Of a stretch of DNA of 64,000 bases, positions 7,003-59,942 are shown one piece after another; position 1 is the stretch's first letter; the number at the start of each line of letters is the position of its first letter. Source of the DNA: Lentimicrobiaceae bacterium (GTDB taxonomy: Bacteria > Bacteroidota > Bacteroidia > Bacteroidales > JAGONC01); NCBI GenBank assembly GCA_017993235.1, contig JAGONC010000001.1, positions 66,880-130,879 on the forward strand, read 5' to 3'. Made by a program: the position numbers and the translations under genes. The notes under the pieces are model-generated. The model ran no database searches. It saw only the letters and a program-made list of their open reading frames with translations, and had not been told where the DNA came from.

Positions 7003-7045
7003 ACTGATATTCGCAGTTTGCTGTTTGCTGTTCGCTGTTAATAAA
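6946..7045. repeat. Inverted simple repeat (aacagcaaatagcgaacagcg type)
   Basis: The left half carries aacagcaaatagcaaatagc and aacagcgaac units. The right half carries the reverse complement (gcagtttgctgtttgctgtt, cgctgtt), so the segment can fold into an imperfect hairpin. The same vocabulary (attcgctgttcgctattcgc) reappears at 9538-9592. It overlaps the apparent start of the HYR reading frame. Confidence 0.65.
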
Positions 7046-15433: not shown

Positions 15434-16384
15434 ATGGGCATATTTTCTATTTTTAGTAAAGAAAAGAAGCAGCAGCTCGATCAGGGTTTATCCAAAACCA
15501 AGGAGAGCGTTTTTACCCGGATATCCAAGGCTATCATCGGTAAATCCAGGGTGGATGATGATGTGCTGGACAACCTGGAGGAGATCCTGGTGACATCCGA
15601 TGTAGGAGTCGACACCACGCTGAGGATCATTGAAAGGATCCAGCAGCGGATCGCCAGGGATAAATACGTTGGCACAGCAGAACTGAACACGATCCTGAAG
15701 GAGGAGATTGCCGCACTGCTGGCAGAAAATGAGTCGCAGCCTTTCGCTGATTTTACCGTTCCCACTGCCGATTTTCCTTACGTTATCCTGGTCGTGGGCG
15801 TCAACGGGGTTGGAAAGACCACAACGATCGGTAAACTCGCTTATCAGTACAAAAAGAGTGGCTTTCAGGTACTTTTAGGTGCCGCTGACACCTATCGCGC
15901 TGCAGCCATTGATCAGCTGAAGATATGGTCCGAAAGGGTAGGGGTGCCCATGGTCAGCCAGCACATGGGTTCCGACCCTGCCTCAGTGGCTTATGACGCT
16001 CTTTCATCGGCTGTAGCTCAGAAAAAAGACGTGGTGATCATCGACACGGCCGGAAGGCTGCATAACAAGGCTCACCTGATGAATGAACTGGGTAAGATCA
16101 AACGGGTGATGCAAAAAGTGATCCCGACAGCCCCGCAGGAGGTCCTGCTGATCCTGGATGCCTCAACGGGACAGAATGCCTATGAGCAGGCAAAGCAATT
16201 CACGGAGGTAACCGATGTCAATGCCCTTGCCATCACCAAACTGGATGGAACCGCCAAAGGCGGCGTGGTCATCGGCATATCCGACCAGTTCAGAGTTCCG
16301 GTGAAGTACATCGGTATCGGTGAGAAGCTGGAGGATCTGCAGATCTTTAACAGGGAAGAATTTGTGGACTCGTTGTTTAGATAG
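15434..16384 (+). CDS. ftsY: Signal recognition particle receptor FtsY
   Basis: A 316-residue SRP GTPase receptor. It has a short N-terminal segment without an acidic A domain, an N domain (about 20-105), and a G domain with GVNGVGKTTTIGKL (about 122-134), DTYRAAAIDQL, DTAGRLHNK and TKLDGTAKGG. It docks SRP-bound ribosomes (see ffh at 61.2 kb) at the inner membrane. The ATG follows the inverted repeat at 15365-15423. The gene ends 22 bp before the convergent cysQ stop. Confidence 0.95.
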   Translation: MGIFSIFSKEKKQQLDQGLSKTKESVFTRISKAIIGKSRVDDDVLDNLEEILVTSDVGVDTTLRIIERIQQRIARDKYVGTAELNTILKEEIAALLAENESQPFADFTVPTADFPYVILVVGVNGVGKTTTIGKLAYQYKKSGFQVLLGAADTYRAAAIDQLKIWSERVGVPMVSQHMGSDPASVAYDALSSAVAQKKDVVIIDTAGRLHNKAHLMNELGKIKRVMQKVIPTAPQEVLLILDASTGQNAYEQAKQFTEVTDVNALAITKLDGTAKGGVVIGISDQFRVPVKYIGIGEKLEDLQIFNREEFVDSLFR

Positions 16385-16442
16385 CTGCAAGCTGCAAGCT
16401 GCTATTTCAAAGTTTAAGGCTTGAAGCTTGAGTCTTGTAGCT
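16385..16442. repeat. Simple inverted repeat at the ftsY/cysQ junction
   Basis: agctgcaagctgcaagctgc on the left and gcttgaagcttgagtcttgt on the right form imperfect complementary units. The right part encodes the C-terminal ~12 residues of CysQ (NSYKTQASSLKL), so the repeat replaces or extends that gene's end. Confidence 0.6.
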
Positions 16443-28213: not shown

Positions 28214-28224
28214 CTGCTAAATCG

Positions 28225-28272
28225 GCAATCGCAATCGAAAATCGAAAATCGAAAATCGACAATCGACAATTT
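28225..28272. repeat. Short tandem repeat (aatcgaaaatcg type)
   Basis: About six degenerate units of an 8-mer (aatcgaaa / aatcgaca) directly downstream of the tRNA. Repeats of this style recur at other gene borders here. Confidence 0.6.
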
Positions 28273-41159: not shown

Positions 41160-41840
41160 TTTTTGCAAAAAATCCATTACCTCGATGCGGTTACAGCATA
41201 ATAGACAAAACATCACTGGGATTACATCTATGAAGCCTGGGATGAACCGAATTTCAGCATGACGCCTTTCGGACCTGATGCCTGTGCCATCGGGGGAACC
41301 GGATTCGGGATCATGGCCACCATCGTTGCAGTAGAAAAATGATTTACCAGCCATTGGGTATCCAACAGCCCTACTTCAATCGCTATGAAGATTATACAGG
41401 TGAGTCAGCGAAAAATTATTCTTATATTGTTTAGATAATCCAAAAGGATTTAAGGAGTATGGTGAGGATGGCTGGGAGCTGACCGCCAGCGATGGGCCCT
41501 TTGATTATTCTGCAGATGAGCCCGTGCCCTGGCAGGACCACGGCAAGTTAACTCCAACCGGTGCCATCAGCTCCTTTCCCTATACCCCTGAGGAATCCAT
41601 GAAAGCCCTAAAGAATTACTATTTCAACTATGGCCATCTTCTCTGTGGGGAGTACGGATTCAGGGATGCCTTCAGCCTTACCGAGAATTGGTGTTTGGAA
41701 ATTTATATGGCTTTAACCAGGCACCCATGACCGTGATGATCGAGAATTACCGGACAGGTCTGATCTGGAAGCTGTTCATGCAGGATCCCGAGATACAGGA
41801 GGGACTCCGGAAACTGCAGGACGAAGGAACCAATGAATGA
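41160..41840 (+). pseudogene. Decayed GH144-type (glycoamylase-domain) gene
   Basis: Fragments in different frames match the intact GH144 proteins of this locus. About 41210-41340 encodes YIYEAWDEPNFSMTPFGPDA...GGTGFGIMATIVAVEK, like GGSGFGVMAVLVGIER in the 812-aa enzyme, then a stop. About 41450-41700 encodes YGEDGWELTASDGPFDYS...TPTGAISSFPYTPEESMKALKNYY, matching WGLTASDDPSGYS...TPSAALSSMPYTPQESMAALKHFY. After a small gap and frame change, 41700-41840 encodes MTVMIENYRTGLIWKLFMQDPEIQ. Roughly 200 central codons are missing and there are several stops, so the gene is dead. It lies directly downstream of the GH94 gene. Confidence 0.88.
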
Positions 41841-44963: not shown

Positions 44964-47261
44964 ATGAAATTCAAACTTTTATTACTGGGATCTCTTGTCC
45001 CGCTGCTGATTCTGACCACCTGTACACAAAAAATGGAAGCTCCTGCCAAAGGCGATATGACCGCTTTCATCGATGGCCTGATGAAAAAGATGACCCTGGA
45101 GGAAAAGATCGGCCAGCTGAACCTGCCCGGTTCGGGGGACATCATCACCGGACAGTCATCCAGCTCTGACATTGGCAAAAAGATCAAAGAAGGAAAGGTA
45201 GGCGGATTGCTGAACATCAAATCAGTGGATAAGATCCGTGATGTGCAGAAAGTGGCCGTTGAGGAGAGCCGTCTGGGCATTCCCCTGATCTTCGGTATGG
45301 ATGTTATCCACGGATATCAGACCACGTTTCCTATTCCACTGGGGCTTGCCAGCAGTTTCGATATGGCGCTGATCGAACAAAGTGCCCGCATCGCAGCGGT
45401 GGAAGCAAGCGCTGATGGAATATGCTGGGCTTTTTCCCCAATGGTTGATATTGCCCGTGATCCCCGCTGGGGAAGGATTGCCGAAGGGGCAGGGGAGGAC
45501 GCTTACCTGGGTTCCCGGGTGGCCGAAGCCTATGTGCATGGATATCAGGGTGATGATCTGTCGAAGAACAATACGATCCTGGCCTGTGTCAAACATTATG
45601 CGCTTTATGGTGCGGCTGAGGCCGGGCGCGATTACAATACGACCGATATGAGCCGTATCCGGATGTTCAATGAATACCTGCCTCCTTATCAGGCAGCTGT
45701 GAAGGCAGGTGTGGGCAGTGTGATGACATCCTTCAATGAAGTCGACGGCATACCTGCCACCGGTAACAAATGGCTGATGACGGATGTTCTGCGTGACCAG
45801 TGGGGATTTAACGGTTTTGTGGTGACCGATTATACCGCCATCAATGAAATGATTGCACATGGAATGGGCGATCTGCAAACCGTCTCAGCTTTAGCCCTAA
45901 AAGCAGGGGTTGATATGGATATGATAGGAGAAGGATTCCTGACCACGTTGAAGAAGTCGCTGGATGAAGGTAAGGTGACCCAGGCAGAGATCGACCAGGC
46001 CTGCCGTCGGATCCTCGAGGCCAAGTATAAACTCGGGCTTTTTGAAGATCCTTACCGTTATTGTGACCTGGATCGCCCTGCTACCGACATTGCCACCGAG
46101 GAGCATAATCGGATCGCCCGGGAAGCAGCCGCTCAAACGTTTGTTTTGCTTAAGAACGAAGATCAGCTGCTGCCACTGGAGAAAAAAGGGAAGATCGCTC
46201 TGGTGGGCCCTCTGGCTGACAGCAGGGATAATATGGCGGGTATGTGGAGTGTGGCTGTTGATCACGCTGAATCCGTCACGGTGCTGGAAGGTTTTAAAGA
46301 GGCGGTTGGTGACGGGGCGGAGATCTTTTACGCTAAAGGTAGTAACATTGTAGATGATAAGGACATGGATCTATGGGTCAGCACCTGGGGCAGACCTACA
46401 ATGGATACAGTAAGAACAGCCGGTGAGCTGAGGAAAGAAGCTGTTGCATTGGCTTCTAAATGTGATGTCATCATAGCCGCCATGGGAGAGGCTGCCGAGA
46501 TGAGTGGTGAAAGCTCGTGCCGTTCTGATATCTCCCTGCCGGGAAGCCAGAAGGAACTTCTGGAAGCACTGCTGAAAACAGGAAAGCCCATCGTACTGGT
46601 TCTCTTTACCGGAAGACCGCTCACGTTGACATGGGAACAGGAAAACATCCCTGCCATCCTCAATGTATGGTTTGGAGGCACTCAGGCAGGGAGTGCCATT
46701 GCAGATGTGATCTTTGGCAAGGTCAATCCTTCAGGCAAACTGCCGGTAACGTTCCCGCAAACTGTCGGACAGATACCGTTGTACTATAATCACAAGAATA
46801 CGGGGCGCCCATTGGCCGAAGGAGAATGGTACCAGAAATACCGCTCAAACTACCTGGATGTCACCAGCGAACCCCTCTATCCCTTCGGATTTGGTCTTAG
46901 CTACACCCGGTTCGGCTATGGTGATCTTGTGCTGGATCAGCAGCGGCTTTCCGGTGATCAGACCCTTACTGCAAGTATCGATATCACCAACACGGGTAAT
47001 TACGATGGTGCTGAAGTCGTTCAGCTTTATATCCGCGACCTGGTGGGGAGCATCACGCGGCCGGTAAAGGAGCTCAGAGGATTTCAGAAAGTATTTATCA
47101 AAGCCGGTGAAACAAAAACAGTGACATTTAAAATCACCCCTGATGATCTGAAATTCTATAACTATGACCTGGTCTATGACTGGGAGCCGGGCGAATTCGT
47201 CATCATGGTGGGAGGCAACTCAAGGGATGTCGGTTCTGAAACTGTTCTCTGGGAGAAATAA
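44964..47261 (+). CDS. bglX: GH3 beta-glucosidase lipoprotein
   Basis: A 765-residue GH3 enzyme with a lipoprotein signal (LLLLGSLVPLLILTTCTQK). The TIM-barrel domain has FGMDVIHGYQTTFPIP, KHYALYGAAEAGRDYN, and nucleophile Asp289 in GFVVTDYTAINEM. The alpha/beta sandwich (AAMGEAAEMSGESSCRSDI) and C-terminal FN3-like domain (GDVQLYIRDLVGSITRPVKE-like) follow, as in BglX. GH3 members from Bacteroides thetaiotaomicron (BT_3567) and Listeria (Lin1840) hydrolyse sophorose and other beta-1,2-glucosides, which fits this locus. It ends 8 bp before the convergent FISUMP gene. Confidence 0.9.
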   Translation: MKFKLLLLGSLVPLLILTTCTQKMEAPAKGDMTAFIDGLMKKMTLEEKIGQLNLPGSGDIITGQSSSSDIGKKIKEGKVGGLLNIKSVDKIRDVQKVAVEESRLGIPLIFGMDVIHGYQTTFPIPLGLASSFDMALIEQSARIAAVEASADGICWAFSPMVDIARDPRWGRIAEGAGEDAYLGSRVAEAYVHGYQGDDLSKNNTILACVKHYALYGAAEAGRDYNTTDMSRIRMFNEYLPPYQAAVKAGVGSVMTSFNEVDGIPATGNKWLMTDVLRDQWGFNGFVVTDYTAINEMIAHGMGDLQTVSALALKAGVDMDMIGEGFLTTLKKSLDEGKVTQAEIDQACRRILEAKYKLGLFEDPYRYCDLDRPATDIATEEHNRIAREAAAQTFVLLKNEDQLLPLEKKGKIALVGPLADSRDNMAGMWSVAVDHAESVTVLEGFKEAVGDGAEIFYAKGSNIVDDKDMDLWVSTWGRPTMDTVRTAGELRKEAVALASKCDVIIAAMGEAAEMSGESSCRSDISLPGSQKELLEALLKTGKPIVLVLFTGRPLTLTWEQENIPAILNVWFGGTQAGSAIADVIFGKVNPSGKLPVTFPQTVGQIPLYYNHKNTGRPLAEGEWYQKYRSNYLDVTSEPLYPFGFGLSYTRFGYGDLVLDQQRLSGDQTLTASIDITNTGNYDGAEVVQLYIRDLVGSITRPVKELRGFQKVFIKAGETKTVTFKITPDDLKFYNYDLVYDWEPGEFVIMVGGNSRDVGSETVLWEK

Positions 47262-50582: not shown

Positions 50583-53021
50583 TTATTGTTTTATCAATTT
50601 ATCAATTGCTATTATGTGCTGATCTTTACTTAAATAAATAAAGTAAAGCCCCGAAGGGATTCCTTCCAGTCCGGTTCTTATCCGATGAATGCCCGGGGGG
50701 CAAACCCGGCCTGCATGAAGTGATCTGACCTTTTGACCGGTCAGGCTCACGATCGTGATATCGATCTTTTCCTCTTTTTTGCATTCAACAGTAAGGATTG
50801 TCTCTTCATGTGCCGGATTGGGAGAACAGGAAAAGGATATCATATCTGGATCATATCCGGGTCCATTGATCGAATAGGGATCATTCACAAAACCGATGGA
50901 TTCCAGGGCCGGAGCGATCTCGGGATTTTTCATGAATTTATCCCACAGCAAACCGCTGCGGTGATTTTCGATCATGCAGATGATGGGACCCTGGTCGATG
51001 GCAAGGTATGAGTCCGCATACCAGTTTTGCTGCACATTGAAGGCATCATAAAATCCAAAGGGTCCCCACAGATCGGCACCACGGTCGCGGTAAAAATGCT
51101 TCAGTGCGGCCATGGACTCCTGGGGAGTATAAGGCATGGAGGACAAAGCTGCCGAGGGAGTAATGGTACCATTATCGCGGGATGTGATGGGCTCGTGAAC
51201 ACTGTAACCGGATGGATCATCGCTGGCGGTCAATCCCCAGCACGAGGCGCTGTAACCTGAATAATTCTTGGGATTATCCATGCAGTATGCCTGGTTGATC
51301 AGGCTCATGTTTTTATTGTTATTGAAGTAATTGGTATACTTATCTTTTATATTCCTGGGATCAAAACCAAGAAAGGAGTAGTGGGCAAAGAAAAGCGGGC
51401 CGCCGTAATCCCAGCCCACATCCAGTTTATATCCATAAAACGTTTTACCATTTTTGTAATAGGAACTTCCGGCCCATCCTGTCTCCCACAGGTTGGCAGG
51501 GACGCCATGTGTGGGAGACGCAATGGCAAGGATGTACACGATCATGGCTTCGTTGTACCCTCTGACCGTCATATTCATCTGCCAGCCGTAGTTGGGAGAC
51601 CAGTGCCAGTAGAGGACGCTGCTGCCATTGCGCCGGTACCAGTCCCATTCCATGGATTCCCAGAGCTGGGTAATGGTCTCCCGAATCGTTTGCTCATCCG
51701 TCGAATTCTGATCAAAATAATGTCGTGCCGTCAGCAGACCCTGGAACATGAACGCGGTTTCGACCAGGTCCCCTCCATTGTCATAGGTGGTGAAGGGGAT
51801 AACATCCCCGGTGTTTCCATTCATCCAGTGCGGCCAGGCTCCATGGAATCTATCGGCAGATTCCAGAAAGTGAACGATGGTGAGCATCCTTTCCACTCCC
51901 TGCTGGCGGGTGATGAATCCTCTTTCAATCCCGACAAGTACCGCCATTACTCCAAACCCGGAACCCCCGATGGTGACCACATCCCCTGAGGTATTTCTCT
52001 CACGTGTCAGTCCGCTCACCGGATGCGCGAAGTCCCAGAAATAGCGGAAGGTGGCTTCCTGAACCATGTTCATGAGCTCCTCATCGGTCATGTCATGCGT
52101 ACTGGTTGTAACGGATTCTGTGAATACCGAGGGCTGATTGACAGCATTCAGTGCATTGATTTTGTACTGCAGGTTCAGATTGGTTCCCAGGGATCGCACG
52201 AAGTCCGAAAAATAGGGAGTTGCTTTGCTGGCAATACCTGCTTTTTGCCAGTATGTGCCGTTATCAGTTGACCTGTAGATTTCATAGCCGTTCAGATTCG
52301 TTTCCGTATTGGGATTCCATTTCAGATATACATGGCTGTCGTACCCACTGACAGCAAGCCCAGTCGGAGTTGCTACGGGCGGGGAGGAACCATCACCCAC
52401 CTGCACCCTGACATCATCGATGAACAGGGTGTGTTCGGAGTCATCTGTCAGGTTCTGACCCCAGCCTACCGTTTTGATCTTTGTGAAGTCGACTGGATCA
52501 CCGGCATCAAAGAAAAGCTTCATTGGAACAGTGATCCGCGTCCACCTGTCAGGCGGCAGGTCATCAGCATATGAGGTCAGGCTGAACTGCGTTGTTGTGG
52601 TATTGTTGATATCTTCCAGGAATACGGTAGGCAGTTTTTCTTTTGCCAGTCCTTCAGGAGCGTAAAAATAAAATGCCAGTGTGTCGGTCTGTGATATGTC
52701 TTTAGCGGCCCAATCCAATCCTGCAGCGATGGCATGCCAGTATCCGCCGGGAACCGAGCGCCAGTGAAGCCGCAGGGAGTTCATGCCCTGTTGTGCAGGG
52801 GTGGTAGTTTCAACGGGGAACCGGCGACTGTCATATCCTGCCAGCTCAAGATAACTCGGTGTTGTCAGCACCAGCCAGCTGAAATCATAGTAGTTGTCCA
52901 GCGGGCTGTCCTGAAAGTAGTAATAGGTTTGGCCCTGGGTGTGGGTCCATAAGAGTAATGAGAGGAGAAAGGAGAGAGGAGAGAGGAGAGAGGAGAGAGT
53001 GTTTTTGGAGGGTGGTTTCAT
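50583..53021 (-). CDS. T9SS-exported multidomain GH144-type enzyme
   Basis: An 812-residue protein. Order: signal peptide (LLSPLSFLLSLLLWTHTQG), a beta-sandwich binding domain (about 30-215, ending HTLFIDDVRVQVG), an FN3 domain (about 218-310, LKWNPNTETNLNGYEIYRS), the glycoamylase/GH144 catalytic domain (about 315-725; ATFRYFWDFAHPVSGLTRER, GGSGFGVMAVLVGIERGF, RGYNEAMIVYILA, IDQGPIICMIENHRSG), and a type A T9SS tail (about 732-812; FSCSPNPAHEETILTVE ... GIPSGLYFIYLS). It would cut beta-1,2-glucan outside the cell. The signal peptide is coded by a 7-bp tandem repeat (see 52959-52999). It is followed by a terminator. Confidence 0.88.
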   Translation of the reverse strand: MKPPSKNTLSSLLSPLSFLLSLLLWTHTQGQTYYYFQDSPLDNYYDFSWLVLTTPSYLELAGYDSRRFPVETTTPAQQGMNSLRLHWRSVPGGYWHAIAAGLDWAAKDISQTDTLAFYFYAPEGLAKEKLPTVFLEDINNTTTTQFSLTSYADDLPPDRWTRITVPMKLFFDAGDPVDFTKIKTVGWGQNLTDDSEHTLFIDDVRVQVGDGSSPPVATPTGLAVSGYDSHVYLKWNPNTETNLNGYEIYRSTDNGTYWQKAGIASKATPYFSDFVRSLGTNLNLQYKINALNAVNQPSVFTESVTTSTHDMTDEELMNMVQEATFRYFWDFAHPVSGLTRERNTSGDVVTIGGSGFGVMAVLVGIERGFITRQQGVERMLTIVHFLESADRFHGAWPHWMNGNTGDVIPFTTYDNGGDLVETAFMFQGLLTARHYFDQNSTDEQTIRETITQLWESMEWDWYRRNGSSVLYWHWSPNYGWQMNMTVRGYNEAMIVYILAIASPTHGVPANLWETGWAGSSYYKNGKTFYGYKLDVGWDYGGPLFFAHYSFLGFDPRNIKDKYTNYFNNNKNMSLINQAYCMDNPKNYSGYSASCWGLTASDDPSGYSVHEPITSRDNGTITPSAALSSMPYTPQESMAALKHFYRDRGADLWGPFGFYDAFNVQQNWYADSYLAIDQGPIICMIENHRSGLLWDKFMKNPEIAPALESIGFVNDPYSINGPGYDPDMISFSCSPNPAHEETILTVECKKEEKIDITIVSLTGQKVRSLHAGRVCPPGIHRIRTGLEGIPSGLYFIYLSKDQHIIAIDKLIKQ
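52959..52999. repeat. 7-bp tandem repeat inside the GH144 signal-peptide codons
   Basis: Plus-strand ggagaga units: four perfect copies plus one base (52971-52999) preceded by a degenerate copy. On the coding strand it reads ctctcct repeats within codons for the Leu/Ser-rich signal peptide. Seven is not a multiple of three, so gain or loss of one unit would shift the frame. Confidence 0.85.
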
Positions 53022-53164: not shown

Positions 53165-54214
53165 TCATTTGACCGAGTAGAGGCCAAACACCTCGCTTGC
53201 GGAAAGAGCCCGCGTGAACATGTGCATCTCATCGTACAGACTTAGGTCTGAGTAGTGCTCCCAGTATCCGAAATTGGGCATGCCGGAGCCAATGGAAATG
53301 GACGTGCAGTTTGCCCAGGAGATCTTGGCATCGATATCCTGTTCCTTGGCCACTGCGCCATCAACGTAAATGGTAGTATGCGTGGTTGAGATCGTAATGG
53401 CAATATGCATCCAGTCCTGGGTTGGAGGTATTGTGACGAAAGGATTTATCCAGACCTCAACTTCTCCGATGCCGAAATTCAATCCCAGATTCTGGTTATC
53501 GCCGCTGTTTTCGTGGAACATCCGGAGACCTGAGTTTCTGCTGTCGCCCGGGGGGCTGATCGCAAGGATACCGCCTCTTGGAGGCGTAGCGTTGATCTTA
53601 TACCAGAAGGCCACGCTGAATTCATCGGTCATGACTGCTGTTGCAGGAAATGTCAGGTAGGCATCCGTGGCACCTGCATAGGCACTTTTAACTTTTCCTT
53701 CAGCAAAGCCAGGAGAACCCACAATGCCGGCTTCTTCACCCGAGATGAAATCAATATAATTATCATTGAAGGAGAGGTATAATGCTTCTCCATCCATGGG
53801 TATGTATCCTTCACCGGTTATCTTCTTGAAATTGACCGATTTGGGATCGCTGGTTTTTCCAGTAAGGTCGGTGGCAACCACCGAGATAGTATGATCACCG
53901 TCGGGTACATCGCACTTTACTTCAAGAACAGCTCTCCGGTAATCCCTAAAGGATGAAATGGAAGCAACCTGTGCTCCATCCAGCTGTATTACCACTGATT
54001 TCAGCTCGATATCATCCGTGGCCTCCAGTTTGACGGTAACGATTGAAATGGTATCAATCACTGGCTGTCCTTCCTCAGGAAAATTGATCTTAACCTGCGG
54101 TTTTGAAACATCATTGGCCGTCTGGACCTCATTGATGGGATCGAGGTAGTCTTCACAGGACACGGCCAGCAATGCCACCAGAAAGCAGGTAATTATGATT
54201 TTTATAGGTTTCAT
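53165..54214 (-). CDS. Surface lipoprotein with Ig-like and LamG domains (SusE-position glycan-binding protein)
   Basis: A 349-residue lipoprotein (signal IIITCFLVALLAVSCEDYLD, Cys20). An Ig-like domain of the bacterial chitobiase-type (about 40-130, VKINFPEEGQPVIDTISIV; GDHTISVVATDLTGKTSD) is followed by a concanavalin/LamG domain (about 140-349, LYLSFNDNYIDFISG; EFSVAFWYKI; DWMHIAITISTTHTTIYVDG). In PULs the gene after susD usually encodes a surface glycan-binding protein; the LamG fold fits that role. It lies 36 bp after susD and ends at a strong terminator. Confidence 0.84.
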   Translation of the reverse strand: MKPIKIIITCFLVALLAVSCEDYLDPINEVQTANDVSKPQVKINFPEEGQPVIDTISIVTVKLEATDDIELKSVVIQLDGAQVASISSFRDYRRAVLEVKCDVPDGDHTISVVATDLTGKTSDPKSVNFKKITGEGYIPMDGEALYLSFNDNYIDFISGEEAGIVGSPGFAEGKVKSAYAGATDAYLTFPATAVMTDEFSVAFWYKINATPPRGGILAISPPGDSRNSGLRMFHENSGDNQNLGLNFGIGEVEVWINPFVTIPPTQDWMHIAITISTTHTTIYVDGAVAKEQDIDAKISWANCTSISIGSGMPNFGYWEHYSDLSLYDEMHMFTRALSASEVFGLYSVK

Positions 54215-54250: not shown

Positions 54251-55783
54251 TTACTGAAGAACAGGCAACTGATCCACCTGGTTTTGCGGATAGGGGAGAA
54301 AGGTTTTATCAGCGGAAAAAGTTCTTCCGTCATAACTCAATTCACCGGTTCTACCTAACCTTATCATGTCATAGAAGCGTGTGCCCCATTCCATAGCGAG
54401 TTCGGCATACTTCTCATCCATCACCTGGTCGTTGGTGACACCTGAGAGATTTGAAAGGCCAGCCCTTGACCGTACCTTATTGACCGCTGCATCAGCAGTG
54501 CCTGCATTACCCGATGCGCCCTGTGTCATTGCTTCGGCATACATAAGCAGGATTTCTGCATAGCGGATGCAGGTAAAGTTTTTATTCGTACCGTAGTTGG
54601 TTCTTCCGGGGGTCAACTGATCAGAAGGCAGGTAGTGCTTTCCGCTGGCAAACATTTCGCGGGCAAAATCATTGATAACATCCCCTGAAGGAGTGGTATT
54701 GGATATCCAAGATGGCAGGTTCGCATACTTGGGATCTTTTTTGATCTCCTCGATACCCCTGGGCGTGAATAACACACTGGTCTCCAGGCGTGTGGTTTCA
54801 CCCCTGTCGAGCATGAATTTGATCCATTTCATGCTCGGTTCCCAGAATCCCCATCCGTCGCCGGAACCTGCTACCTTGGGTGTCCAGCCCTGAGGGCCAA
54901 AGAAAGCGAACAGGTAGAAATAATTGTCACCAGATGCTTGTCCCAGGTCTGAATACTGCATCTCAAAAAGATTTTCATTGTTCAGCTTTCCTTTGATCTT
55001 GAATAGTTCATAAAAATCACTTTCAAGTTCGAACTTGCCTGAATTGATGATTTCACCTGTGGCATTCGCGACATTTTGATAATTTTTCAGTTCAAGATTG
55101 GCAAGAGCCTTTATGGCCAGGGCTGTATATTTTGTTACAGCACCGGGGATGTCAGTACGTTCGTTAGGCCTGAGGGCGGGCAGATTCGGTATCGCTTCGT
55201 CCATCCAGTCAGAGATCATCTGCATGATCTCATCCTTGGAGGATAGGCCGGCAACCAGCAGTTCTGAAGGATCTGAGCTGGGAGGAACCGGAAGGGCTCC
55301 CCAAACGCGACTGACCTGGAACAGCCACCAGGCTTTCAGGACTTTCGCCTCCGAAATGTATTGATCAGCAAGTTTCTGGTCAGCACCGGCATCGGCATAA
55401 AGGGTAACCTGTTCTATGGCAGAGTTGGCAATGAACATATTCTGGTAATAATTCTGCCAGAGCGAATTGTACATCCAGTAATCCTTGTTGTAGAGATACC
55501 AGTCCGTGTTTTCAAAGTCCTGCTGGTCGCCTTCTCCTCCGGCATTAACATCATCCCCGCGAACGGAGATCAGGGGGAAATTTTCCCAACCAGCGTCGAC
55601 CATGTTTAATCTTTGATAGGCACCGATGAGAGGCAGTTTCATATTACTGCTGATTGTGTAATCGGTTTCCTCTGTAAATGCTTTATTTTCAGGTGGTTCG
55701 TCAAGATACTTCTCGCACCCGGAATAGGCAAATAATAATAACAGAGCCCCAATGACAATGGATAGAAATTTATATGGTTTCAT
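54251..55783 (-). CDS. susD: SusD/RagB family outer-membrane lipoprotein
   Basis: A 510-residue SusD-like protein with lipoprotein signal (IGALLLLFAYSGCEKYLDEP) and the typical pattern: PLIGAYQRLNMVDAG start region, AEAKVLKAWWLFQVSRVWGALPV-type TPR helices, NFTCIRYAEILLMYAEAM, AVNKVRSRAGL, and the C-terminal FYDMIRLGRTGEL ... PYPQNQVDQLPVLQ. It caps the SusC barrel and binds the incoming oligosaccharide. It is 18 bp after susC. The specificity is not readable from sequence; the locus suggests beta-1,2-glucan. Confidence 0.93.
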   Translation of the reverse strand: MKPYKFLSIVIGALLLLFAYSGCEKYLDEPPENKAFTEETDYTISSNMKLPLIGAYQRLNMVDAGWENFPLISVRGDDVNAGGEGDQQDFENTDWYLYNKDYWMYNSLWQNYYQNMFIANSAIEQVTLYADAGADQKLADQYISEAKVLKAWWLFQVSRVWGALPVPPSSDPSELLVAGLSSKDEIMQMISDWMDEAIPNLPALRPNERTDIPGAVTKYTALAIKALANLELKNYQNVANATGEIINSGKFELESDFYELFKIKGKLNNENLFEMQYSDLGQASGDNYFYLFAFFGPQGWTPKVAGSGDGWGFWEPSMKWIKFMLDRGETTRLETSVLFTPRGIEEIKKDPKYANLPSWISNTTPSGDVINDFAREMFASGKHYLPSDQLTPGRTNYGTNKNFTCIRYAEILLMYAEAMTQGASGNAGTADAAVNKVRSRAGLSNLSGVTNDQVMDEKYAELAMEWGTRFYDMIRLGRTGELSYDGRTFSADKTFLPYPQNQVDQLPVLQ

Positions 55784-55801: not shown

Positions 55802-58800
55802 TTAAAACTTGACATTCAGGCCTAAGGTATACACGGCTGCGACAGGATAGGTCTGTGAGTCCCATCCGTTGGCAACTTCAGGTGTAAAACCGTTGTACTG
55901 GAACAGTGACAGAGGGCGTTCCGCTGTGAAATAAATCCGGGTTACCGGGAAGTTACCGTTAAGCCATCCACTGCTATTCAGGGTGTAACCTAACTGAATA
56001 TTCTGGATCCGGAAGAAGGATCCATTCTCGACGAAATAATCACTCATTTTCTGATTCCAGCCTCTGCGTAAACCCGACGAGGAAGGATACTTGTCGGAAG
56101 TACCATCTCCATGCCAGCGGTTTTCAGCCAGATCGGCATCAACATTTCCGTCTGATGTCCAGATGATTTCACCGCGTTTCCGGTTGAGCACTTTATTCCC
56201 GGCCTGACCATATACACTCAGGGAAAAGTCAAGCCCCAGGTATTTAAATCCGAGATTTCCACCATAGATAAAGCTTGGGAAATAGGAACCAAGGATAACG
56301 CGATCATCATCGTCCAATTTTCCATCATTGTTTTGGTCTTTGTATTTGAAATCACCGGGCACAAGTCCGTTCTCCACAGCAATCGGATCGTTAAGGATTT
56401 CCTGTTCGTTCTGATACACTCCGACTACCTCGCGGCCGTAGAAGGCCATCAACGGCTCACCTACGTAGGTGCGCTGACGGAATTCAGCCGTGCCGCCGTC
56501 AATGTAGTCCTGACCGTAAAGATCCGTTGCCTCATTTTTTAAGGTGGAAACATTAACTCCCACGTTGTAGGTGAATTTATGGCTGACTTTATAGTTCCAG
56601 TCGAGGGCAAGTTCGATTCCGGAGTTCCGGATCGTTCCCACAGGTTTCAGTACGCTTCCACCCACCGATGGGATCATGACCGGAATGGCTGCATTCTTTG
56701 TGTCACGGGTGTACCAGTCGAAATCGGCTGAAAGTTTTTCATCCAGGAACCGGGCGGTAAAGCCGATGTTGGTCTCTTCGGTCAATTCCCACTTGAGTTC
56801 TGAATAATCGCTGGATACGACTGTCCCATAATAGATAATTCCACCCATGGTGGTGCTCACCACATTGGTTGTGTATGCACCATCACTGGCAGGGATCTTG
56901 TCGTTGCCCAGTCTTCCCCAGCTGGCTCTTAGCTTGAGAAAATCAACCACACCATTACCCTTCATGAAATTTTCCTCAGAAATCACCCAGCCTGCGCCCA
57001 CGGTGGGGAAGTATCCCCAGGTTTCCTGGTATTTATTGCTGCCATCAGCCCTGAAAGTGGCATAGAGCAGGTACCTGTTGCTGTAGTTATAGGCAACCCT
57101 TCCAAAGTATGACATTCCATACTCTCTCAGTCCGCCGTCGGAGACTGCCTCTGCGACAATGGCCGTCGCCTGGTCGATGTACCAGGATTGTTCCATATCT
57201 GTCGGAAAATCCTTCCCCTGGGCCATGAGCAGCTGATATCCTTCGTCACGGAAAGATGTCCCCGCCATCACTGTCAGGTTGTGATTTCCGAATTCTTCGG
57301 TGAAGGTCAGGACATTGTCCCAGATATTGTCGTTATAATTGGTCAGTGCCCTTGTAATGGTTGCATCCGGATTCTGGAAACCGTCGTCGATGTACCACGG
57401 CAGATTGACCACCCGCTGGTCGATTGACTGGAAAGCATAATTATAGGTTGTCTTGAACGTAAGTGTTTTGGGAATGAGGTTGAATTCGAGGTAAAAGTTG
57501 GAGGTCAGCTTCTTGATCTTCATGCGGTCAATGTTATAATCCATGGATGGAAAAGGATTCTGGCCGGCTCTGTAGCCAATGGAACGGGCGCTTGAGTAAT
57601 TCGTGGGCCAGGCTGCGGTATTCAGCTCGTCATAAACCGGCATGACGGGTACCGCAAAATAAGCGTCATTCCATGCATTGGCAGGAGCATTGTATTTCAA
57701 TGCATTGCTAAAGATTAGATTACCACCTACGGTAAGCCATTTGGTGGCTTTCAGATCCAGTTTTGTACGAAGGTTGAAACGTTCATACTTGTTTTCCATG
57801 TCCATGATCCCGTCCTGCAGGAAATAATTTCCCCCGATCGAATACTTGGCTATATCCGTTCCACCGGAGAAATCCAGACTGTGGTTAGTGATGGGAGCAG
57901 GGCGGATGATTTCGCTGTACCAGTCCGTATTGGGCTCCGGTATGCTGGGATCTACCCGGCTTCTCCCATAACGCTGCATGGCATTCAGGATGAAGGTGGC
58001 ATCAGCTGTGGATCCCGATTCCATCGCCATCGTGGTGAACTGCTGGGAATTCGACATCTTCACTACATTCTGGGCCACCTGGTATCCGAAATAGCCGTCG
58101 TAGGTGATCTGGGTCTTCTGGTTATAGGCTCCGGATTTGGTCTCGATGATTACCACACCGTTGGCGGCTCTCACACCGTAAATGGCCGCTGCGGAGGCGT
58201 CCTTCATGACCGACATGGACGCGATATCCGAAGGATTCAGAAAATCAATGTTATCAAAGAACATCCCATCGACAATGTAAAGGGGTGACTCGGAGTCCCT
58301 TCCGGGAAAGGAACCGATACCACGGATCCTGACGGTCGGCTGATCCCCCGGAGCTCCGCTGGTCACCACTTGCAACCCGGCCACCTTTCCCTGTAAGGCC
58401 TGTATCGGCTGCGAAGCAGGTGTTTTCATCAGATCCTCAGCTTTTACTGTGGCAATGGAGGAAGTGAGGTCCTTGACTTTTGTACTCCCATACCCAACCA
58501 CAACCACTCCCTCCAGTGAAGTTCTGGTGGGTAGCAATTGAAAGTTATAGACATTCTGACTACCAATAGCAACTTCCTGTGTGTCAAAACCAACAAAACT
58601 GACAACCAGTGTAGCATCTTCAGGAGCAACCTGCAGGCTGAACCGGCCATCCAGATCGGTGGCGGTTCCTTTGGAAGTACCTTTGATCAGCACCGTCGCT
58701 CCAGGCAGGGTCTCGTTTGTTTCACGGTCAGTGACCGTACCGGTGATGGTCCTTTGCTGACCGAATGCGACCGTACATGCACCGGCCAGCAAAAGCATCA

Positions 58801-58852
58801 ACATGCTTTTCACCAGCCTGAATGCTTGTATTTTGGGTAGATAGTTCTTCAT
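55802..58852 (-). CDS. susC: SusC/RagA TonB-linked outer-membrane transporter
   Basis: A 1016-residue SusC. The signal peptide ends near VAFGQ, the CarboxypepD-like domain spans about 33-108 (ITGTVTDRETNETLPGATVLI), the TonB box/plug runs about 112-235 (LEGVVVVGYGSTKVKDLTSS; LQGKVAGLQVVTSGAPGDQP; DIASMSVMKDASAAAIYGVR), then the beta-barrel ending in aromatic AAVYTLGLNVKF. There is no N-terminal STN domain, so no direct anti-sigma signalling is expected. It begins the minus-strand operon susC-susD-LamG and has a good promoter at 58931-58963. It imports glycan fragments with TonB energy. Confidence 0.95.
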   Translation of the reverse strand: MKNYLPKIQAFRLVKSMLMLLLAGACTVAFGQQRTITGTVTDRETNETLPGATVLIKGTSKGTATDLDGRFSLQVAPEDATLVVSFVGFDTQEVAIGSQNVYNFQLLPTRTSLEGVVVVGYGSTKVKDLTSSIATVKAEDLMKTPASQPIQALQGKVAGLQVVTSGAPGDQPTVRIRGIGSFPGRDSESPLYIVDGMFFDNIDFLNPSDIASMSVMKDASAAAIYGVRAANGVVIIETKSGAYNQKTQITYDGYFGYQVAQNVVKMSNSQQFTTMAMESGSTADATFILNAMQRYGRSRVDPSIPEPNTDWYSEIIRPAPITNHSLDFSGGTDIAKYSIGGNYFLQDGIMDMENKYERFNLRTKLDLKATKWLTVGGNLIFSNALKYNAPANAWNDAYFAVPVMPVYDELNTAAWPTNYSSARSIGYRAGQNPFPSMDYNIDRMKIKKLTSNFYLEFNLIPKTLTFKTTYNYAFQSIDQRVVNLPWYIDDGFQNPDATITRALTNYNDNIWDNVLTFTEEFGNHNLTVMAGTSFRDEGYQLLMAQGKDFPTDMEQSWYIDQATAIVAEAVSDGGLREYGMSYFGRVAYNYSNRYLLYATFRADGSNKYQETWGYFPTVGAGWVISEENFMKGNGVVDFLKLRASWGRLGNDKIPASDGAYTTNVVSTTMGGIIYYGTVVSSDYSELKWELTEETNIGFTARFLDEKLSADFDWYTRDTKNAAIPVMIPSVGGSVLKPVGTIRNSGIELALDWNYKVSHKFTYNVGVNVSTLKNEATDLYGQDYIDGGTAEFRQRTYVGEPLMAFYGREVVGVYQNEQEILNDPIAVENGLVPGDFKYKDQNNDGKLDDDDRVILGSYFPSFIYGGNLGFKYLGLDFSLSVYGQAGNKVLNRKRGEIIWTSDGNVDADLAENRWHGDGTSDKYPSSSGLRRGWNQKMSDYFVENGSFFRIQNIQLGYTLNSSGWLNGNFPVTRIYFTAERPLSLFQYNGFTPEVANGWDSQTYPVAAVYTLGLNVKF

Positions 58853-59835: not shown

Positions 59836-59942
59836 AGACAACCACGAATAACCACGAATAACCACGAATAACCACGAATAACTATGAATAACCATTGAAT
59901 GACTATTGAATGACTATTGAATGACTACTGAATAACCACGAA
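59836..59942. repeat. Tandem repeats (aataaccacg and ttgaatgacta units)
   Basis: About five copies of a 10-mer (aataaccacg) followed by three or four copies of an 11-12-mer (attgaatgact), ending again in aataaccacg. It fills the gap between DUF6599 and DUF362 and explains the false N-terminal extension of the former. Confidence 0.8.

Follow-up and report, generated by a model that had tools for sequence, protein, structure and literature searches.

A heptamer array in the signal-peptide region of a GH144 gene is one copy of a repeat family dispersed through a Lentimicrobiaceae genome

The heptamer array near the 5' end of a GH144 gene in a Lentimicrobiaceae bacterium is one copy of a dispersed repeat family, (TYTCTCC)n or, on the opposite strand, (GGAGARA)n. 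An earlier note on this DNA had proposed that the array makes the exported enzyme phase-variable. We think it probable that this dispersed copy was accepted as the core of the signal peptide and is held in frame by selection, and we consider dedicated phase variation less likely than such a tolerated array. The array at the GH144 gene is on its own no sign of a switch, because the heptamer is dispersed genome-wide, mostly at gene ends and in intergenic DNA, and since the genome is full of such arrays, no special purpose needs to be sought for this one. A frame-breaking repeat close to a start codon is thus insufficient to call a gene phase-variable in a genome where heptamer arrays are common, and both the genomic background and the orthologs must be checked before such a call is made. 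In what follows, the window is the whole stretch of 64,000 nucleotides that was analysed, G000 is the genome it comes from, G001 and G002 are two congeners, and G003 belongs to another genus of the same family.

The gene encodes a protein that, by similarity across its catalytic domain, is a GH144 enzyme, as the earlier note had held. Pfam PF10091 matches residues 485-700 with 263 bits, and PDB chains 5z06, 5gzh and 5gzk, which we take to be GH144 enzymes, match with E-values of 5.3e-156 or less. The match of Por_Secre_tail to the C-terminus is weak (22.1 bits, under the curated 27) and hints at type IX export. The coordinates of the gene, its array and its neighbours are collected in Table 1. 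At 41422-41813 the window also holds the remnant of a second GH144 gene, split over two reading frames; this second gene is likewise in pieces in G002, and G001 has open genes of the kind.

Table 1. Coordinates within the window of the GH144 gene, its heptamer array and neighbouring genes
Feature	Position	Strand	Basis
GH144 (endo-beta-1,2-glucanase-type) gene, 812 aa	50583..53021	-	PF10091, PDB chain matches
GH144 catalytic region, residues 302-716	50874..52118	-	PDB 5gzh match
Possible type IX secretion C-terminal sorting domain, residues 734-810	50592..50822	-	Weak Por_Secre_tail match
Inferred signal peptide, residues 1-30, MKPPSKNTLSSLLSPLSFLLSLLLWTHTQG	52932..53021	-	Translation and relatives
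Heptamer array in coding sequence	52964..52998	-	Minus-strand reading, TRF, period-7 run count
(TCTCTCC)4	52971..52998	-	
TTTCTCC, degenerate unit following the four perfect units	52964..52970	-	
TCTCA, 3' of the TTTCTCC unit	52959..52963	-	
Laminin_G_3 and Ig-domain protein, same gene cluster as GH144	53165..54214	-	
SusD-like neighbour	54251..55783	-	
SusC-like TonB-dependent receptor, neighbour	55802..58852	-	
GH3 family enzyme, neighbour	44964..47261	+	

The four perfect units and one degenerate unit that had been described at 52959-52999 are indeed present on the minus strand, and on the plus strand the array reads GGAGAAA(GGAGAGA)4. Its exact period-7 run extends over 30 bp (52970-52999), and TRF reports a repeat of period 7 with 5.7 copies and 93% matches at 52960-52999. 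Seven exact period-7 runs of at least 17 bp occur in the window, where 20 second-order Markov copies average 0.15, so chance is no explanation for the array. When the corresponding threshold of 10 bases past one unit is applied to other periods, the window has three exact runs of period 8, one each of periods 10 and 11, and none of periods 4, 5, 6, 9 and 12.

The array begins 23 nt after the ATG (53021) and spans codons 8-20 of the leader MKPPSKNTLSSLLSPLSFLLSLLLWTHTQG and the Q that follows it. Judged by eye, this N-terminus appears to have a positively charged start with two lysines, a hydrophobic stretch and an end, GQT, which aligns with the signal-peptide ends of relatives and places the inferred cleavage before Gln31. 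The array supplies the hydrophobic core of this inferred signal peptide, in agreement with the claim that the repeat encodes part of it. These same features argue against the view that the true start lies downstream and that the array is 5' untranslated RNA contributing nothing to a signal peptide. Arrays that precede genes in the pyrimidine sense do occur in the family, as a downstream start would have it, but no ATG, GTG or TTG stands in frame between the array and the mature sequence alignable with relatives, and the ATG contained in CTCTTATGG belongs to another frame. We therefore reject a start codon 3' of the array, and the untranslated reading as a whole appears highly unlikely.

Because 7 and 3 share no factor, a TCTCTCC array encodes the same cyclic peptide, S-L-L-S-P-L-S, in every frame and contains no stop in any of them. 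The unit is nevertheless indivisible by three and sits within the 5' coding region, and the expectation that a one-unit change would shift the frame and abolish the enzyme was reproduced in silico: with one or two units added or removed, the protein ends after 40-56 aa, whereas with three added or removed the frame stays open. This arithmetic, a 7-nt unit early in a coding sequence with the frame lost at one or two units in either direction, is what recommends phase variation. According to that reading, slipped-strand mispairing would toggle secretion of the enzyme much as it does for neuO, with the gene ON at four perfect units or at three more or fewer, and cells would either pay or not pay for a public-good glucanase. 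We regard it as unlikely. It has a precedent in neuO, whose repeat is likewise a 7-nt coding repeat (PMC3046976), and an excess of simple sequence repeats close to N-termini has been reported (Lin and Kussell, cited in PMC4692102). The array, on the other hand, has only four perfect units, compared with a commonest number of 20 in neuO as reported in PMC13001214. In the 60 nt upstream of the array, a stop immediately ahead of it closes one alternative frame, and the remaining one lacks an ATG but contains a TTG, from which length variants may be weakly rescued.

Evidence for the dispersed origin of the array comes from the distribution of the heptamer. Two adjacent perfect units, (TCTCTCC)2, match 45 times in G000, 84 times in G001 and 11 times in G002. 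From these we took every listed site, 27 in G000 (the window included), 37 in G001 and 8 in G002 (loci L114-L182, L081 and the window), and extending them with at most one mismatch per unit, a rule on which the unit counts depend, gave 29, 37 and 8 arrays, respectively, or 74 in total, with two G000 loci holding two arrays each. Five units is the length of 14 of the 29 arrays in G000. The family appears confined to the genus: the 18-mer TCTCTCCTCTCTCCTCTC was found in 2 of 119 genomes of the order, both of this genus, and was absent from the other 117, and a degenerate version was present in three of five genomes of the taxonomic family (142 matches in G000) and in neither of two genomes from sister genera. 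A reversed-pattern control for the doublet and 18-mer counts was uninformative, since reading the heptamer backwards yields a rotation of the same sequence. Period 7 is also the main class of tandem repeat in 464 kb sampled from the genome (20 chosen stretches of 20 kb plus the window), where it accounts for 33 of 93 exact runs of periods 2-15, followed by period 14 with 17 runs and period 8 with 13. Although 88% of this DNA is called coding, 27 of the 33 period-7 runs lie outside called genes, and the other six fall within three genes. The arrays, moreover, have recognisable ends: read on the pyrimidine strand, 40 of 74 open with TTTCTCC, a unit that takes 66 of 257 inner places (Fisher p = 9e-6), and TCTCA directly follows 38 of the 74.

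The arrays are placed with a clear orientation relative to genes. Those with GGAGAGA on the coding strand and a start between -70 and +60 nt of the end of a stop codon number 54 of 74, with ORFs filtered by a hexamer coding score, where 1,440 placements drawn at random from the noncoding DNA of these loci predict 22.4; the 74 arrays include orthologs and are not independent. In G000 alone the figure is 23 of 29 (binomial p = 7e-8). In arrays so placed, the array's own TGA often serves as the stop codon (TGAGAGGAGAGA). In the mirror orientation, by comparison, stop codons have 22 of 74 arrays with 21.7 expected. Membership in a genome-wide family found mostly at stop codons speaks against a dedicated switch at the GH144 gene. 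At gene starts, arrays in the purine sense number 29 (33.9 expected) and those in the pyrimidine sense 12 of 74, fewer than the 22.4 expected. The position of the GH144 copy is thus not a favoured one.

Opposite heptamers within 80 nt of each other accompany 16 of the 74 arrays, nine of them between convergent and seven between tandem genes. Strong hairpins need two such facing arrays: the pair at L131:2975-3065, which lies between tandem genes and is the only facing pair that was folded, forms a near-perfect hairpin (-62.9 and -65.8 kcal/mol; z-scores -7.2 and -8.3), and RNA folding of the lone GH144 array in the window gave no structure on either strand. Runs of three or more G of the quadruplex type are absent from the unit GGAGARA, which has GG only.

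The length of the GH144 array was unchanged over a distance at which most of the compared arrays of the family had changed. In the G001 ortholog the array is (TTTCTCC)2(TCTCTCC)2TTTCTCC, five units in frame, and the distance from the ATG to the same Trp codon is 72 nt in both species, each with five units. The two genes agree at 33 of 35 array bases and at 256 of 300 bases from the Trp codon on, and their proteins are 78% identical over residues 24-811 (81% over 2-779). This comparison rests on one ortholog with a readable 5' end, and hence on two species; the G002 sequence matches the last 81 residues at 98%, and its contig ends inside the gene. Among 14 orthologous loci chosen to exclude the coding cases, by contrast, the members have unequal unit numbers at 10, such as 5/8, 3/9, 8/5 and 4/10, and equal ones at 4. 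Five of the 10 differences are not multiples of three, which indicates that slippage by any number of units occurs in the genus. The first members of these pairs are L114, L116, L118, L119, L121, L124, L125, L128, L131, L132, L137, L138, L141 and L143; 13 of them match on both flanks and one, L131/L151, on one flank, and several overlap the end or start of a called gene. A pair is detectable only if both members hold two perfect units. We left out the short matches that L117, L138 and L146 have to other arrays on one flank, the weak pair L126/L175, and the paralogs L127/L164 and L144/L164.

That arrays of the family differ in unit number between species is what a slippage switch would draw upon, but the identical length and frame of the GH144 array in the sister species run counter to it. 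Thus, the frame arithmetic behind the proposal of phase variation stands, and the one comparison available at this gene goes against the hypervariability it calls for, with five units in each species while 10 of 14 other loci changed. The same agreement bears on the idea that the array length in the draft is an artefact of assembly or sequencing. The two genomes are draft assemblies of 91 and about 30 contigs, and it is at repeats that drafts go wrong, yet the assemblies of two different species arrive at the same length, in frame, and ordinary short reads are longer than the 30-bp run. We consider an artefact extremely improbable. In relatives outside the genus, namely G003 (L082) and the more distant L029, L030 and L031, the signal peptide contains no array, suggesting that the array probably entered within or just before the genus.

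Other genes that carry repeats behave in a similar way, and those of the set that are coding change length in steps that keep the frame. In a G000 gene assigned to Fib_succ_major by Pfam (L127), a TCTCTCC array again forms the core of the signal peptide, as it does in relatives that were assigned to it by flank similarity, one in G002 (L144) and two copies in G001 (L177). The number of residues up to SAQ is 28, 32, 32 and 28 in L127, L144 and the two L177 copies, respectively, so the length has changed by 12 nt and not by 7, and the frame is kept. The first L177 copy (L177:2975-3060) carries a frameshift just after the signal peptide, caused not by the heptamer but by a run of 8 C against 7 C in the neighbouring copy, which may be a real OFF allele or a sequencing error. 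An SRAP (SOS-response-associated peptidase) protein with a repeat of CAGTCAG, another heptamer, in a loop has 239, 249 and 248 aa in the three species (L203, L204 and L205), all open; heptamer repeats in such a gene, where switching makes no obvious sense, also count against a switching role. The frames are likewise open in all three species for a membrane protein whose insert, in G000, holds a TCTCTCC array. In G002, the inserts of the SRAP protein and the membrane protein (L208) consist of other repeat-rich sequence and not of the same heptamer array.

Altogether, the frame is kept across the repeat region in 8 of 8 relatives of the four repeat-bearing G000 genes (one for GH144, three for Fib_succ_major and two each for SRAP and the membrane protein), and none is OFF through its repeat, contrary to what phase variation would lead one to expect. 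These relatives came from protein or pattern searches that took no account of frame, whereas the set of four G000 genes is biased towards ON because they were recognised as coding through their open frames. Any minority of OFF cells would be invisible, since draft assemblies show one majority allele. Among 13 arrays checked in three frames, we found no downstream gene with a signal peptide broken through the heptamer; the called gene at L180 starts beyond the stretch examined, and neither the second L131 array nor L148 precedes a gene in the pyrimidine sense.

We therefore favor a history in which the array family would have spread within the genus, with most copies coming to lie at or just behind stop codons, and in which the GH144 copy would have landed at a gene start in the pyrimidine sense. 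The SLLSPLS peptide probably has the hydrophobicity that the core of a Sec signal peptide requires. With such a peptide encoded in any frame and no stops, we infer that the array took the place of an ordinary core in the ancestry of G000 and G001, and selection since then would have held it in frame. Slippage presumably still produces truncated, nonsecreted variants at some rate, and these are most likely deleterious mutants and not the product of a selected ON/OFF switch. Of this history, the array with its frame and its family, its absence from the signal peptides of the four more distant relatives and its equal length in the sister species are observations, whereas we infer in which direction the core was replaced, that the peptide functions through Sec and that selection is what keeps the frame.

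How the array relates to known heptamer systems also bears on its interpretation. A literature search for the heptamer letters brought up no paper on such a repeat among the ten titles listed of 482 partial matches. The closest coding precedent is the phase-variable (AAGACTC)n repeat of neuO in the CUS-3 prophage of E. coli K1 (PMC3046976, PMC13001214), which is described as starting two nucleotides past the start codon, with copy numbers of 2-93 and the ON state at multiples of three (PMC3046976). In a set of 64 genomes, 42 (65.6%) were reported to be OFF, and the commonest repeat number was 20 (PMC13001214). The likeness lies in the 7-nt unit near the 5' coding end, three units of which make one heptapeptide (SLLSPLS in GH144), so that a change by three keeps the frame. 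The neuO repeat, as described there, differs in usually having more units, many natural OFF alleles and demonstrated switching, whereas the GH144 array has four perfect units, no known length variant and membership in a genome-wide family. The tracts of hmw1A and hmw2A in Haemophilus influenzae, reported with 13-38 copies in two strains, share a 7-nt unit of changing number, but no reading frame is shifted there because the tracts lie upstream, in the promoter (PMC2651432).

Another parallel is provided by the dispersed G-rich heptamers of Xanthomonas and Nostoc, GGGAATC and GGGGA(C/T)T, of which two Xanthomonas genomes are reported to hold 186 and 183 arrays (PMC4692102). As described in that report, these arrays are mainly noncoding and variable in unit number, and they lie mostly within 50 bp past a stop codon with the G-rich strand coding, some of them overlapping the stop; its authors consider a role in phase variation unlikely (PMC4692102). 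The family described here resembles them in its many short dispersed arrays and in the position of the G-rich strand, coding just downstream of stops (54 of 74). It differs in its unit, GGAGARA, which has GG runs only, and in belonging to another phylum. A second preference reported for Xanthomonas and Nostoc, close upstream of genes with the G-rich strand noncoding, is absent here (12 of 74 against 22.4), and the use of some copies as signal-peptide cores sets the GGAGARA arrays apart from those heptamers as they are described in PMC4692102. Dispersed TAACTGA direct repeats, reported from Beggiatoaceae, Cyanobacteria and five Bacteroidetes, are alike in forming heptamer arrays, some in Bacteroidetes and some adjoining other heptamers; they have another sequence and lie, in the main genome of that study, mostly just upstream of start codons (PMC4679880). 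Forward TAACTGA repeats give stops in all three frames, unlike TCTCTCC (PMC4679880).

A broader reading, which we put forward tentatively and as perhaps somewhat doubtful, would make the family an oriented element of gene 3' ends that has also become the signal-peptide core in at least two unrelated families of secreted proteins. According to this proposal, facing pairs between neighbouring genes would form very strong hairpins, and the property of encoding the same heptapeptide in every frame would be what enables the use of the repeat in proteins. If the oriented placement at stop codons holds, an unrelated lineage joins Xanthomonas and Nostoc, and a shared cause, be it transcription termination, R-loops or slippage at gene ends, becomes testable. 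The signal-peptide copies would in turn represent a case of repeat DNA becoming protein.

Other repeats were also noted in the course of the analysis. The CAGTCAG heptamer forms another family in G000, with 29 matches of a 19-mer and one and two matches in sister genera. At L193:5294-7993 in G000, two parts, which we take to be GldF-like and GldG-like, are fused in one open frame via a linker of heptamer repeats. Heptamer arrays of different units lie in the window at 28219-28270, 16383-16402, 7016-7039 and 917-942, all outside called genes, together with an octamer array at 871-906, in keeping with the general abundance of such repeats in this genome. The window also has, at 59840-59938, a tandem array of mixed 10, 11 and 20 bp periods (AACCACGAAT, GAATGACTATT, GAATAACCATTGAATGACTAT).
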